A stretch of 64,000 nt of DNA from Blattabacterium sp. (Nauphoeta cinerea) (GTDB taxonomy: Bacteria; Bacteroidota; Bacteroidia; Flavobacteriales; Blattabacteriaceae). The notes beneath the pieces were generated by a model that saw only the letters and a program-made list of their open reading frames with translations, was not told the DNA's origin and searched no databases. Position 1 is the stretch's first letter. Each line of letters opens with the position of its first letter. A program made the position numbers and the translations under genes. Positions 21,211-46,369 of this stretch are shown piece by piece. The stretch spans positions 186,001-250,000 of the forward strand of contig NC_022550.1 of assembly GCF_000471965.1 (NCBI RefSeq), given 5' to 3'.

Positions 21211-22860
<1,650 letters not shown>

Positions 22861-22906: not shown

Positions 22907-23185
22907 TCATATAATAGCTATAATATCAGACTCTCTCATAATGAGATATTCTTCTCCTTCCCATTTTAATTCTGTACCAGAATATTTACCATACAAAACT
23001 CTATCTCCTTCTTTTAAACTCATAGGTTCATCTTTCTTTCCTTTCCCTACTGCTATTATAGTTCCTTTTTGTGGTTTTTCTTTTGCTGTATCAGGAATAA
23101 TAATACCTGAAGCAGTTTTTGTTTCAGCTGGATCAGGTTGCACAAGAACTCGATCTGCTAAAGGTTTAATCTTTACTTCCACCAT
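22907..23185 (-). CDS. groES: co-chaperonin GroES (Hsp10)
   Basis: GroES is the seven-fold lid of the GroEL chamber. The protein has 92 residues, with the family opening [17 protein letters not shown], the mobile loop [19 protein letters not shown] (about residues 20-38) and the end [16 protein letters not shown]. The upstream 119 bases hold a shared palindrome (23285-23297) and a sigma-54-like GG-N10-GC site (23225-23241). The gene thus seems to have its own promoter within the longer miaB-groEL cluster. Confidence 0.98.
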
Positions 23186-23224: not shown

Positions 23225-23241
23225 TAGCCAAAAACATGCCA
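23225..23241 (-). promoter_or_regulatory. candidate sigma-54 promoter of groESL
   Basis: On the minus strand this reads TGGCATGTTTTTGGCTA. It has the invariant -24 GG and -12 GC of sigma-54 promoters at the exact 10-base spacing, about 40 bases before the groES ATG. The -12 half (TGGC) departs from the usual TTGC. A sigma-54 activator gene lies in the same cluster. rpoN itself is not in this window. Confidence 0.4.
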
Positions 23242-23284
23242 AATGAAAAAAAATTTATTTTTTATTTGTTAAATAAATATTTAA

Positions 23285-23297
23285 TGTCATTATGGCA
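23285..23297. promoter_or_regulatory. shared palindrome upstream of groES
   Basis: TGTCATTATGGCA is a near-perfect inverted repeat, 100 bases before the groES start. It matches the site before miaB (26714-26726) at 12 of 13 positions. The site before dnaK (46275-46287) matches its reverse complement at 12 of 13. Likely an operator or activator site; the binding protein is unknown. Confidence 0.6.
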
Positions 23298-23304
23298 CAT
23301 TTAT

Positions 23305-23550
23305 TTAATATTTTGATTTTAATAAAAAATTGAAAAATAAAATTAGAAAAAATATGATAATAGATAAAAACCAAGTCACATTTTCTAAAAATGTGTTTGT
23401 TCTTTTCACACCAAAAAATCTAAAATTTTTTTCCATAAAAGATTGATGAATACTTTCTCTTTTAGGATTTTGTATCAAAATTACTAATGTAAGCAAAAGA
23501 CATATTATGATGATAAAAAAACAAAATATAATTATAGATATATTTTCCAT
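23305..23550 (-). CDS. secG: preprotein translocase subunit SecG
   Basis: SecG is a small two-helix component of the SecYEG channel. From ATG 23550 the protein has about 81 residues, with helix 1 ISIIIFCFFIIIICLLLTLVIL, the conserved LIQNPKRES-like turn, a polar loop and helix 2 VTWFLSIIIFFLILFFNFLL. The ATG at 23589 would add 13 charged residues and overlap lptE; the internal start fits the family better. secY lies at the far right of this window. Confidence 0.87.
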   Translation of the reverse strand: MENISIIIFCFFIIIICLLLTLVILIQNPKRESIHQSFMEKNFRFFGVKRTNTFLENVTWFLSIIIFFLILFFNFLLKSKY

Positions 23551-23582
23551 ATCATTTACTATTTTTATTTTATCAAATGATT

Positions 23583-24074
23583 TTACCAATCATTACGGAA
23601 ATCATCAAATATTTTTTGATACACCTGTATCGTTAATTTCTCTATGATTTTATCAATAACTTCTTTTGGAAAAAGATCTTTTTTATTATTTTTGAATATC
23701 TCAGATACGACAAAAGATTTTTCCCAATTTTTTTCCGGTTCATAAATATCTTTGTATGATATTTTTGCAGTTACTTTAATTTTTTTTAACTGCTGATTTT
23801 CAACTGGAATAATTGCATAATTTAAAAATACACCTTCCAAAATAACATCTCCATTTTTTAATGCTAAATTAGCAGGACTATGTTTCATGATATAATTTTC
23901 AATACTTTTTTTGAAATCAAAAGAAATGGATCTTCTAGGTATATTTACCACCTCTGAAATATCTCCTATTTCTATTGTTTTTTTAGTATCAAAAAATAAA
24001 GATGAATAATAACAACTATTAAATGTCATATAAAATATAAAAATCAAAATGACCAAAAATTTTTTATAACCCAT
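23583..24074 (-). CDS. lptE: LptE-like outer-membrane lipoprotein
   Basis: The protein has 163 residues with an N-terminal signal (KKFLVILIFIFYMTFNSC) ending in a lipobox-like FNSC, so it is probably lipidated at Cys-21. The body, with NIPRRSISFDFKKSIENYIM, a LALKNGDVILEGVFLNYAI strand and VTAKISYKDIYEPEKNWEKSF, resembles the Bacteroidetes LptE family, the partner of LptD in lipopolysaccharide insertion. Its position between the sigma-54 activator and secG is the conserved flavobacterial location of this family. It overlaps the activator gene by 11 bases. No other lpt gene is in view. Confidence 0.8.
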   Translation of the reverse strand: MGYKKFLVILIFIFYMTFNSCYYSSLFFDTKKTIEIGDISEVVNIPRRSISFDFKKSIENYIMKHSPANLALKNGDVILEGVFLNYAIIPVENQQLKKIKVTAKISYKDIYEPEKNWEKSFVVSEIFKNNKKDLFPKEVIDKIIEKLTIQVYQKIFDDFRNDW

Positions 24075-25311
24075 ATTGTTTAATTTTTCTATATAATGTT
24101 CTTTCTGAAATTCCTAATTCTTTTGCAGCTTTTCTTCTTTTCCCATTATTTTTTTTCAAAGCCTTTTGAATAAATTCTATCTCTTTTTTCTCTAAAGAAA
24201 AAGAAGATAGTTCATTTTTAGATAAATCTTCTTCTACTTCTTCATAATCTAAATCGTCTTCAGATTTATATATATCTTCCAATTGAAAAATTGAATCATC
24301 TCTGTTATTATGAATTATTTTTCCAAAAACTTTTTCTAAAAGTTGTTGATTTTTTTCAATAAATCTAGTATTAGAATCATTTTTAATAAACTGAAAGATA
24401 ATATTTTTTAAATCGTTTAAATTTTTTTTCATATCAAATAAAATTTTATAAAGAAAATCTCTTTCTCTATCATGAAAAGATGATTCTATTACATTCTGAT
24501 TAGAAAAAGATATTGATGGAATATTTTCTGGAATATATTCTTTTAATTTTTCCACAGAAATTACACGTTCAGTCTCTACTACAGAAATTTGTTCTGTAAG
24601 ATTTTTTAATTGTCTAATATTACCAGGCCAAGAATAATTCTCCAAATATTTTAAAGATTCTTCAGTCAATGTCACTGGAGGCATATTATATTTTTCTGCA
24701 AAATCATTGGAAAATTTTTTAAATAAAAATTTAATATCCTTTTTACGAAAACGTAAAGGAGGAACATTTATTTGTACTGTATTTAGACGATAATATAAAT
24801 CTTCTCTAAATTTTCCTTTTTGTATAGATTCTGTCATATTTAAATTAGTGGCAGCAACCACACGTATATTAGTTTTTTGGATTTTAGAGGATCCTACTTT
24901 TATAAACTCTCCAGATTCCAATATCCTAAGAAGACGTACTTGCGTAGTTAAAGGCAATTCTCCTACTTCGTCTAAAAATATAGTCCCCCCATCTGCCCCT
25001 TCAAAATAACCTTTTCGCATACTTATAGCACCAGTAAAAGAACCCTTTTCATGTCCAAAAAGTTCACTATCAATAGTCCCTTCTGGAATAGCCCCACAAT
25101 TTACTGCAATATAAGCATGATGCTTTCTACAAGAATATTGATGAATAATTTTTGGAATAAATTCTTTTCCGACTCCACTTTCACCAAGAACTAATACTGA
25201 AATATCGGTAGGTGCTACTTGGATCGCTTTTTCTATAGCTCTATGTAGAGCATAATCATATCCAATGATTCCAAATTTTTGTTTTATTTTTTGGATAAAA
25301 ACGGATTCCAT
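24064..25311 (-). CDS. sigma-54-dependent transcriptional activator (AAA+ with Fis-type HTH)
   Basis: This bacterial enhancer-binding protein lacks an N-terminal receiver or sensor domain; the AAA+ module starts near residue 15. Walker A is VLGESGVGKE (about 40-49). The sigma-54 contact loop is GSFTGA (usually GAFTGA), Walker B is FLDEVGELP, and the arginine-finger region follows FREDLYYRLNT. The C-terminus has a Fis-type helix-turn-helix (RRKAAKELGISERTLYRKI). With no sensory domain its activity may be constitutive or controlled by abundance. It is co-directional with miaB, lptE, secG and groESL, and a sigma-54-like site precedes groES, so these are plausible targets. Confidence 0.92.
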   Translation of the reverse strand: MESVFIQKIKQKFGIIGYDYALHRAIEKAIQVAPTDISVLVLGESGVGKEFIPKIIHQYSCRKHHAYIAVNCGAIPEGTIDSELFGHEKGSFTGAISMRKGYFEGADGGTIFLDEVGELPLTTQVRLLRILESGEFIKVGSSKIQKTNIRVVAATNLNMTESIQKGKFREDLYYRLNTVQINVPPLRFRKKDIKFLFKKFSNDFAEKYNMPPVTLTEESLKYLENYSWPGNIRQLKNLTEQISVVETERVISVEKLKEYIPENIPSISFSNQNVIESSFHDRERDFLYKILFDMKKNLNDLKNIIFQFIKNDSNTRFIEKNQQLLEKVFGKIIHNNRDDSIFQLEDIYKSEDDLDYEEVEEDLSKNELSSFSLEKKEIEFIQKALKKNNGKRRKAAKELGISERTLYRKIKQYGL

Positions 25312-25328: not shown

Positions 25329-26684
25329 TCATTTGTAGGGTTTTCCTATTAAAGTTGCAGATGTAGTATCTATAATTTTTACATATGATATATCTCCTAT
25401 ATTTAGTGATTCTTTAGGAAAGACTACAACTAAATTTTGTGTATTTCTTCCATACCAATATTGATTATTTTTTTTTGATACTCCTTCTATTAAAACTTCT
25501 TCTATTTTACCTAAATGTTCTTGCATCCTATAAAAGGAATGATTTCTTTGTAAATCAATAATCTCTCTGAGTCTATTTTTCTTTATATGTTCAGGAACAT
25601 TGTCTTTTAATTTCCTGTAAGCATAAGTACCAGGTCTTGGAGAATAAGAAAACATATAACCATAATTATATTTGATTTCATTCATCAAATTTATGGTATC
25701 TTGATGATCTTCTTCATTCTCATTACAGAATCCACTAATAATATCATGAGATATAGAGCATTCAGGTATAATATCTTTGATTTGTTTAACTAAAAGAAGA
25801 TATTTTTCCCGTGTATATTTTCTATTCATTAATTTTAATATTTTGTTGCTTCCAGACTGAACAGGTAAATGAATATGTTTACAAATATTTTCATGTTTAG
25901 AAATTACTTTTAACACTTCATTAGACATATCATGAGGATTAGATGTAGAAAATCTAATTCTCATAAAAGGAACTTCTTGAGCTATAAGATCCAAAAGTTT
26001 GGAAAACTCTACAATATTTTTAGGTTTTTTAGGCTTATTTTCTTCATTTTTTTCTTCCCATACATAAGAATCTACATTTTGTCCTAAAAGTGTTATTTCT
26101 TTATAACCATTTTGATATAAACGTTTACATTCCTTTATTATGGAATATGGATCACGACTTCTTTCTCTTCCTCTAGTAAAAGGGACAATACAAAATGTAC
26201 ACATATTGTTACAACCTCTTGTTATACTTAAAAAGGTAGTTATTTTATTATGATTCTGTTTGTTTGAATTTATTAAACTTATATCTGCATAAGTTTCATT
26301 GTTTTTAACAGTGGAAAAATATTGTTTCCCCTCCATAGAAGAATAAATAAAATTAGGGATTTCTCTGTAAGAATCTGGCTTAACAAAAAAATCTACTATT
26401 TTTTGGTGTATAAAAAAATTTTTAATTGTTTTTGAAAAACATCCTATGATTCCAATCCAAATTCTTTTCTTTTTTTTAAGAAATTTTAATTGTTCCAGTC
26501 TTTTTTTTAGAGTGAATTCTGCTTTTTCCCGAATAGAACAAGCGTTTAATAATATTATGTCGGACTTCTCTAAATTTTTAGATAAAAAAAAACCATTATT
26601 TAACAAAATAGAAGTAATAATATCACTATCAGATATGTTCATTTGACAACCATAATTTTCAATATAAAAATTTTTATTTTTCAT
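25329..26684 (-). CDS. miaB: tRNA-2-methylthio-N6-dimethylallyladenosine synthase
   Basis: MiaB is a radical-SAM methylthiotransferase that adds CH3S to i6A37 of tRNAs already modified by MiaA. The N-terminal UPF0004 domain carries Cys in ENYGCQMN (residue 14), NACSIREKAE and GCFSKT. The radical-SAM triad is CNNMCTFC (about 157-164), followed by PFTRGRERSR. A TRAM domain ends the protein. The length of 451 residues is slightly short but complete. A perfect palindrome lies about 30 bases upstream. It heads the cluster that runs through to groEL. Confidence 0.96.
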   Translation of the reverse strand: MKNKNFYIENYGCQMNISDSDIITSILLNNGFFLSKNLEKSDIILLNACSIREKAEFTLKKRLEQLKFLKKKKRIWIGIIGCFSKTIKNFFIHQKIVDFFVKPDSYREIPNFIYSSMEGKQYFSTVKNNETYADISLINSNKQNHNKITTFLSITRGCNNMCTFCIVPFTRGRERSRDPYSIIKECKRLYQNGYKEITLLGQNVDSYVWEEKNEENKPKKPKNIVEFSKLLDLIAQEVPFMRIRFSTSNPHDMSNEVLKVISKHENICKHIHLPVQSGSNKILKLMNRKYTREKYLLLVKQIKDIIPECSISHDIISGFCNENEEDHQDTINLMNEIKYNYGYMFSYSPRPGTYAYRKLKDNVPEHIKKNRLREIIDLQRNHSFYRMQEHLGKIEEVLIEGVSKKNNQYWYGRNTQNLVVVFPKESLNIGDISYVKIIDTTSATLIGKPYK

Positions 26685-26712: not shown

Positions 26713-26727
26713 ATGTCATTATGACAT
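26713..26727. promoter_or_regulatory. perfect 15-base palindrome upstream of miaB
   Basis: ATGTCATTATGACAT has two perfect 7-base arms around a central T and lies 29 bases before the miaB start, in the gap after pncB. It is the most symmetrical copy of the motif also found upstream of groES and dnaK. Confidence 0.6.
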
Positions 26728-44319: not shown

Positions 44320-46235
<1,916 letters not shown>

Positions 46236-46268
46236 TCATATATTAATTTCATTCAATAAGCACTCCAA

Positions 46269-46287
46269 TCATTATGCCATAATGAAA
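46269..46287. promoter_or_regulatory. palindrome upstream of dnaK
   Basis: TCATTATGCCATAATGA (46269-46285) is a perfect 17-base inverted repeat with a single central base. Its right part, TGCCATAATGAAA (46275-46287), matches the reverse complement of the groES-upstream motif at 12 of 13 positions. It lies in the 188-base gap shared by dnaK and rplM. Confidence 0.6.
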
Positions 46288-46354: not shown

Positions 46355-46369
46355 ATGACAAAAAGTCAT
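46355..46369. promoter_or_regulatory. ATGAC-N5-GTCAT inverted repeat upstream of rplM
   Basis: ATGACAAAAAGTCAT has perfect 5-base arms around AAAAA, 40 bases before the rplM ATG. The half-site ATGAC resembles the arms of the groES/miaB palindrome, but the spacing differs, so a shared regulator is uncertain. Confidence 0.35.

Follow-up and report, generated by a model that had tools for sequence, protein, structure and literature searches.

The gene cluster upstream of groESL in this Blattabacterium genome very probably codes for the activator that serves a sigma-54 regulon devoted to chaperones and that would also limit its own expression; we put the probability of this whole explanation at about 0.86. 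A sigma-54 activator (bEBP) lacking a sensor would bind TGNCAN3TGNCA palindromes, located on one face of the helix and 11 to 75 bp upstream of TTGGCA-N6-TTG(A/C) promoters. Hydrolysing ATP, it would open RpoN-RNA polymerase at groESL, dnaK, grpE-dnaJ and htpG. On a palindrome in the sigma-A-type promoter of miaB, the same protein would limit its own synthesis. Because it has no sensor domain, its activity would be set in trans by proteotoxic (folding) stress. The DNA itself shows RpoN and just one bEBP, as well as the promoters, the phasing of the palindromes and the loss of these elements together. This tiny-genome cockroach symbiont apparently retains sigma-54 and a single activator only to switch on chaperones, and comparison shows what looks to be the same chaperone switch occurring widely in related bacteria.

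The activator, its cluster and the groES promoter

The window, a 64,000-nucleotide stretch of a chromosome of 626,626 bases and 26% GC, carries on its minus strand, in this order, miaB (25329-26684; Radical_SAM, UPF0004 and TRAM domains by Pfam), which leads the activator operon, the bEBP gene (24064-25311), an LptE-like gene (23583-24074), secG (23305-23589; SecG by Pfam), directly upstream of the groES promoter region, groES (22907-23185; Cpn10, E = 7e-35) and groEL (21211-22854; Cpn60_TCP1). The LptE-like gene gave no match in the Pfam search, and was named from its position in the conserved cluster and from weak tblastn matches. The miaB-bEBP-...-secG-groES-groEL order is retained in most families of the Flavobacteriales, and 116 of 118 genomes of that order have an orthologue of the activator.

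The activator contains a Sigma54_activat domain (PF00158, E = 3e-65), an AAA lid and a Fis-type helix-turn-helix (HTH_8, E = 3e-12), with the motifs GESGVGKE (Walker A), GSFTGA (loop) and GGTIFLDE (Walker B), as shown by the Pfam search, motif inspection and a structure model. The earlier note had described the protein as having no sensor domain, and this was borne out: the Pfam search found no domain before residue 15, the AAA+ domain starting directly. In the structure model, the AAA+ domain extends to about residue 263 and is followed by a linker to residue 371 and then by the HTH. This linker of about 110 residues, first helical and then disordered, gave no hint of a sensor. The closest solved folds found by Foldseek were those of NtrC1, FlrC and FleQ, and the protein scored under the cut-off of every listed NCBIfam equivalog, PspF included.

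This gene is the sole true sigma-54 activator of the genome. There were five PF00158 matches in all; the window gene scored 222 bits and the remaining ones, which we rejected as bEBPs, no more than 36, being Clp proteins and other weak AAA+ relatives. (A ClpC-like gene outside the window, at C1:579443-581565, is present as two overlapping frames of 250 and 467 aa, possibly through a frameshift, pseudogene formation or an assembly error.) As the earlier note's proposal presupposed, the genome also has rpoN (C1:120406-121920), whose activator-interacting (AID), core-binding (CBD) and DNA-binding (DBD) domains all score above the Pfam cut-off; the reading frames of rpoN and the bEBP gene are both intact. 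Sigma-54 polymerase does not open promoters without a bEBP (PMC7057263). As the genome has only one, this bEBP must serve all of its sigma-54 promoters.

The groES promoter and the palindrome upstream of it were found as the earlier note had described them. The predicted groESL sigma-54 promoter, TTGGCATGTTTTTGGCT (23226-23242, minus strand), has TGGCA at -24, a TTGC-like -12 element and GG-N10-GC spacing, and ends 40 bp from the groES ATG. The palindrome TGCCATAATGACA (23285-23297, minus strand), a candidate enhancer, lies 42 bp upstream of the TTGG of the -24 element. A loose sigma-54 pattern occurred only twice in the 627-kb genome. All 20 Blattabacterium-type genomes compared carry the same 17-bp -24/-12 sequence, and in them the gap to the palindrome was 41-43 bp (18 genomes) or 33-34 bp (2 genomes), a change of about one helical turn. 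Across endosymbionts, the gaps were 41-43, 33-34, 32 and 22 bp, again with jumps of about one turn. In the secG-groES region of free-living Flavobacteriales (L067-L106), the distal palindrome shares sequence with the hairpin (TGCCAGC...GCTGGCA) of the secG terminator, and one element may have two roles there.

The palindrome upstream of miaB, TGTCATAATGACA (26714-26726, minus strand), has a different setting. The earlier note had suggested that the activator might drive its own cluster through sigma-54, a suggestion that we abandoned: no -24/-12 promoter was found in the miaB upstream region, and the palindrome lies inside a sigma-A-type promoter. In free-living relatives, a perfect TGNCAN3TGNCA was present upstream of miaB in 34 of the 37 regions examined, ending 7-20 bp before a TAnnTTTG box, which is the sigma-A -7 box (PMC9723704). 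In most of the Blattabacterium-type genomes read, a palindrome is likewise retained, about 30-50 bp before miaB. Given this location in a sigma-A-type promoter, autoregulation is likelier than sigma-54 activation of the cluster; TGTCATAATGACA is probably an autoregulatory operator, and its presumed effect is repression.

Chaperone promoters and helical phasing

Scanning the chromosome, joined from stretches, for a palindrome followed by a sigma-54 promoter gave exactly four pairs, at groESL (gap 42), grpE-dnaJ (gap 12), dnaK (gap 75) and htpG (gap 12). All four are at chaperone operons, and Markov controls gave 0-1 pairs. The grpE-dnaJ site, outside the window, has a near-consensus -24/-12. 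GG-N10-GC is present at groES (TTGGCATGTTTTTGGCT), grpE (TTGGCAAATATTTTGCT) and htpG (ATGGTATAACTTTTGCG), while dnaK has GG-N10-GG. One further perfect palindrome, TGACATGATGTCA (C1:412525-412537, outside the window), sits between two long ORFs; it has no sigma-54 partner, and we set it aside as a probable chance match.

The dnaK gene (44340-46220, minus strand; HSP70, E = 1e-262) called for a revision of two points in the earlier note. What had been taken for a copy of the shared palindrome, at 46275, belongs to a conserved sigma-54 promoter of dnaK, ATGGCATAATGATTGGA (46264-46280, minus strand), as its -24 element. The note had also held that neither dnaK nor miaB has a clear GG-N10-GC, which weakened the case. 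This is right for miaB; dnaK, however, has a sigma-54 promoter of the TTGA/TTGG type common in this lineage, so the case is not weakened. Free-living promoters are of the TTGGCAYAATTTCTGA type at groES, TTGGCAN6TTGC at grpE and TTGGCATAATGATTGAC at dnaK. The lineage thus frequently has A or G in place of the C of the -12 element, and ATGGCATAATGATTGGA is a clear homologue of the free-living dnaK promoter; we accordingly dropped the strict requirement for GG-N10-GC, the -12 element often being TTGA or TTGG. The candidate dnaK enhancer, TGACTTTTTGTCA (46356-46368, minus strand), has a gap of 75 and one degenerate half-site, and is weaker than the others. Its gap is 64-65 or 75-76 in most of the Blattabacterium-type relatives checked.

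The same layout of palindrome and promoter, which the earlier note had proposed looking for in free-living Flavobacteriia, was found across the free-living Flavobacteriales. A matrix trained only on 36 TGNCAN3TGNCA palindromes upstream of free-living miaB genes (miaB-activator operons) found sites at 68 of 72 good groES, grpE and dnaK sigma-54 promoters, compared to 1.2 expected from shuffles. The gaps between palindrome and TTGG fell at 10-12, 21-22, 32-33, 41-43, 52-54, 62-64 and 71-75 bp, with almost none between, and no palindromes were found past 75 bp when looking up to 125 bp. The Rayleigh R at 10.5 bp was 0.94 for all sites, 0.92 once gap 11 was left out, and 0.89 when each combination of gap and gene was counted once, and phasing as strong occurred in 0 of 20,000 random sets, although the genomes share ancestry, so that these counts are not fully independent and are inflated by relatedness. 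A second set (Tenacibaculum, Psychroflexus, Pedobacter, Dyadobacter and others) gave gaps of 11, 31-32, 41-42, 52-53, 63-64 and 72-75 bp. The promoter palindromes are thus helix-phased, on one face of the DNA, and shared ancestry by itself would hardly produce repeated whole-turn jumps in the gap. A gap of 11 places the centre of the site at about -45. bEBPs usually sit farther upstream than this and normally act by looping.

Pattern searches that were blind to gene identity led to similar genes. At the level of the order, 33 of 40 matches fetched, mostly ones with no prior grpE or dnaK assignment, lay upstream of grpE, dnaK, htpG or a ClpC-like ATPase. At the level of the class, matches lay upstream of grpE, dnaK, htpG and groES, and also of thioredoxin genes and an Hsp20-like gene, these last two kinds being named by eye from sequence. 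An htrA match (L310) was left out of the count as it seems to fall inside the gene. Thioredoxin-like genes in other Bacteroidia families (L319-L324, L344) have the same palindrome-N11-TTGGCA layout, which suggests a wider proteostasis or redox regulon there. One genome of the same class (G253, L332) had 19 matches of the form TGCCAAT...TGCCAATRTGCCA, which resemble a dispersed repeat unrelated to chaperones.

Joint loss and the competing explanations

Within the same family, three genera with small genomes (13 genomes) lack rpoN while the others have it, and the activator is absent exactly in the rpoN-less genera, save for one remnant. The dnaK -24/-12 sequence scored 15-17 of 18 in 6 of 6 rpoN-positive relatives and 8-12 in 13 of 13 rpoN-negative ones (p = 4e-5). 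The groES palindrome (at most one mismatch) was present in 5 of 6 rpoN-positive genomes vs 0 of the 11 rpoN-negative genomes with a groES locus. Thus rpoN, the activator and the sites vanish together in three endosymbiont genera. The remnant (L176, G149:C1:18703-19524), in a genome with no detectable rpoN, has 35% identity and an in-frame stop, as if the system had been lost recently. Two rpoN-positive endosymbionts have poor groES sites, weak in G163 and weak or missing in G164. Taken with the presence of rpoN, the sole bEBP and the layout across free-living Flavobacteriales, the joint loss supports the earlier proposal that the activator drives groESL.

Could some other protein, such as a heat-shock repressor, bind the palindrome, with the bEBP activating the sigma-54 promoters from solution or from elsewhere? 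Sites only 11 bp from the -24 element could block the polymerase sterically, but repression would leave strict 10.5-bp phasing out to 75 bp unexplained. Nearly all relatives also have the palindrome in front of the operon that encodes the bEBP, and palindromes disappear along with the bEBP and rpoN, so we regard a different binder as unlikely. It is a little less likely still that the groES site is a relic of a free-living ancestor, and that groESL is transcribed by sigma-A only in the endosymbiont. Reduced genomes often hold decaying regulation, and sites have been lost in some endosymbionts; against this, all 20 species compared in a genus with 26% GC share the same 17-bp -24/-12 sequence, the groES spacing shifts only by about a whole helical turn, and sites have eroded fully where rpoN was lost, while the rpoN and bEBP frames are intact here. 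AT-rich intergenic DNA yields many weak inverted repeats, and some free-living palindromes overlap the secG terminator; yet that GG-N10-GC and the palindrome arose by chance, or that the palindrome is simply a terminator or replication feature, is highly improbable given the four chromosomal pairs, all at chaperone operons, vs 0-1 in controls, and the conservation across the order.

We infer that this bEBP is the palindrome-binding protein, activating sigma-54 promoters from about -45 to -109 and repressing miaB. Several points stand against this reading: a gap of 11 is unusually close for a bEBP, the window's dnaK palindrome has a degenerate half-site, TTGA or TTGG frequently replaces TTGC at -12, the groES sites of G163 and G164 are poor, the genomes compared are related, and some distal groES palindromes coincide with the secG terminator hairpin.

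Relation to known systems

Sigma-54 start sites have been mapped at groESL, dnaK, grpE-dnaJ, htpG and lon in Flavobacterium psychrophilum, whose genome has three candidate activators (PMC9723704). The sigma-54 (SM4) chaperone promoters of that species resemble the window system, with groESL, dnaK, grpE-dnaJ and htpG in one co-expression cluster with a -24/-12 motif; the main text of that study names no activator for the cluster and no palindrome, and does not treat endosymbionts (PMC9723704). An in silico survey of sigma-54 regulons, in the part of it drawn on here, reports that GroES, GroEL, GrpE, DnaJ and DnaK promoters are enriched in Bacteroidota, most highly in Flavobacteriia (PMC12316311); that part concerns promoters only, and no activator assignment, enhancer, phasing or loss analysis was found in it. 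Retention of RpoN in flavobacterial endosymbionts has been termed unusual and tentatively ascribed to nitrogen use (PMC3971599); our results point to chaperones rather than nitrogen use. A literature search of open-access main texts gave no report that identifies the activator or its palindrome, or that describes the phasing, the site for autoregulation or the loss of all parts together. What therefore appears to be new is the proposed assignment of the activator, together with its phased enhancer, the autoregulatory site and an account of why endosymbionts retain RpoN.

An unnamed, nearly universal activator of the Flavobacteriales can thus be provisionally assigned to the chaperone operons, together with its likely site, and the phased sites offer a rare natural record of the distances and helical faces from which a bEBP can work on sigma-54 polymerase. 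A broader generalization, at slightly better than even odds, is that throughout the Bacteroidia the main chaperone (heat-shock-type) response is run not by RpoH or HrcA but by sigma-54 and this one sensorless bEBP, with enhancers that are promoter-adjacent, helix-locked and act without long-range looping, and that this regulon is the only reason why flavobacterial endosymbionts keep RpoN.

PspF autoregulates. Like the window activator, it has no N-terminal sensor and consists of an AAA+ domain and a Fis-type HTH, and it is regulated in trans by PspA (PMC7057263). Against the NCBIfam model for PspF (TIGR02974), the window activator scored 268 bits, below the cut-off of 443.55; it differs from PspF in its predicted targets, in its linker of about 110 residues and in candidate enhancers that are much closer and strictly phased. 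HrcA/CIRCE offers the other likeness, in that one inverted repeat is common to the groE and dnaK operons. The best match to CIRCE (TTAGCACTC-N9-GAGTGCTAA) in the chromosome was one site with 4 mismatches of 18, at neither groE nor dnaK. The window system differs from HrcA/CIRCE both in the sequence of its repeat and in its logic, which would be that of a sigma-54 activator.
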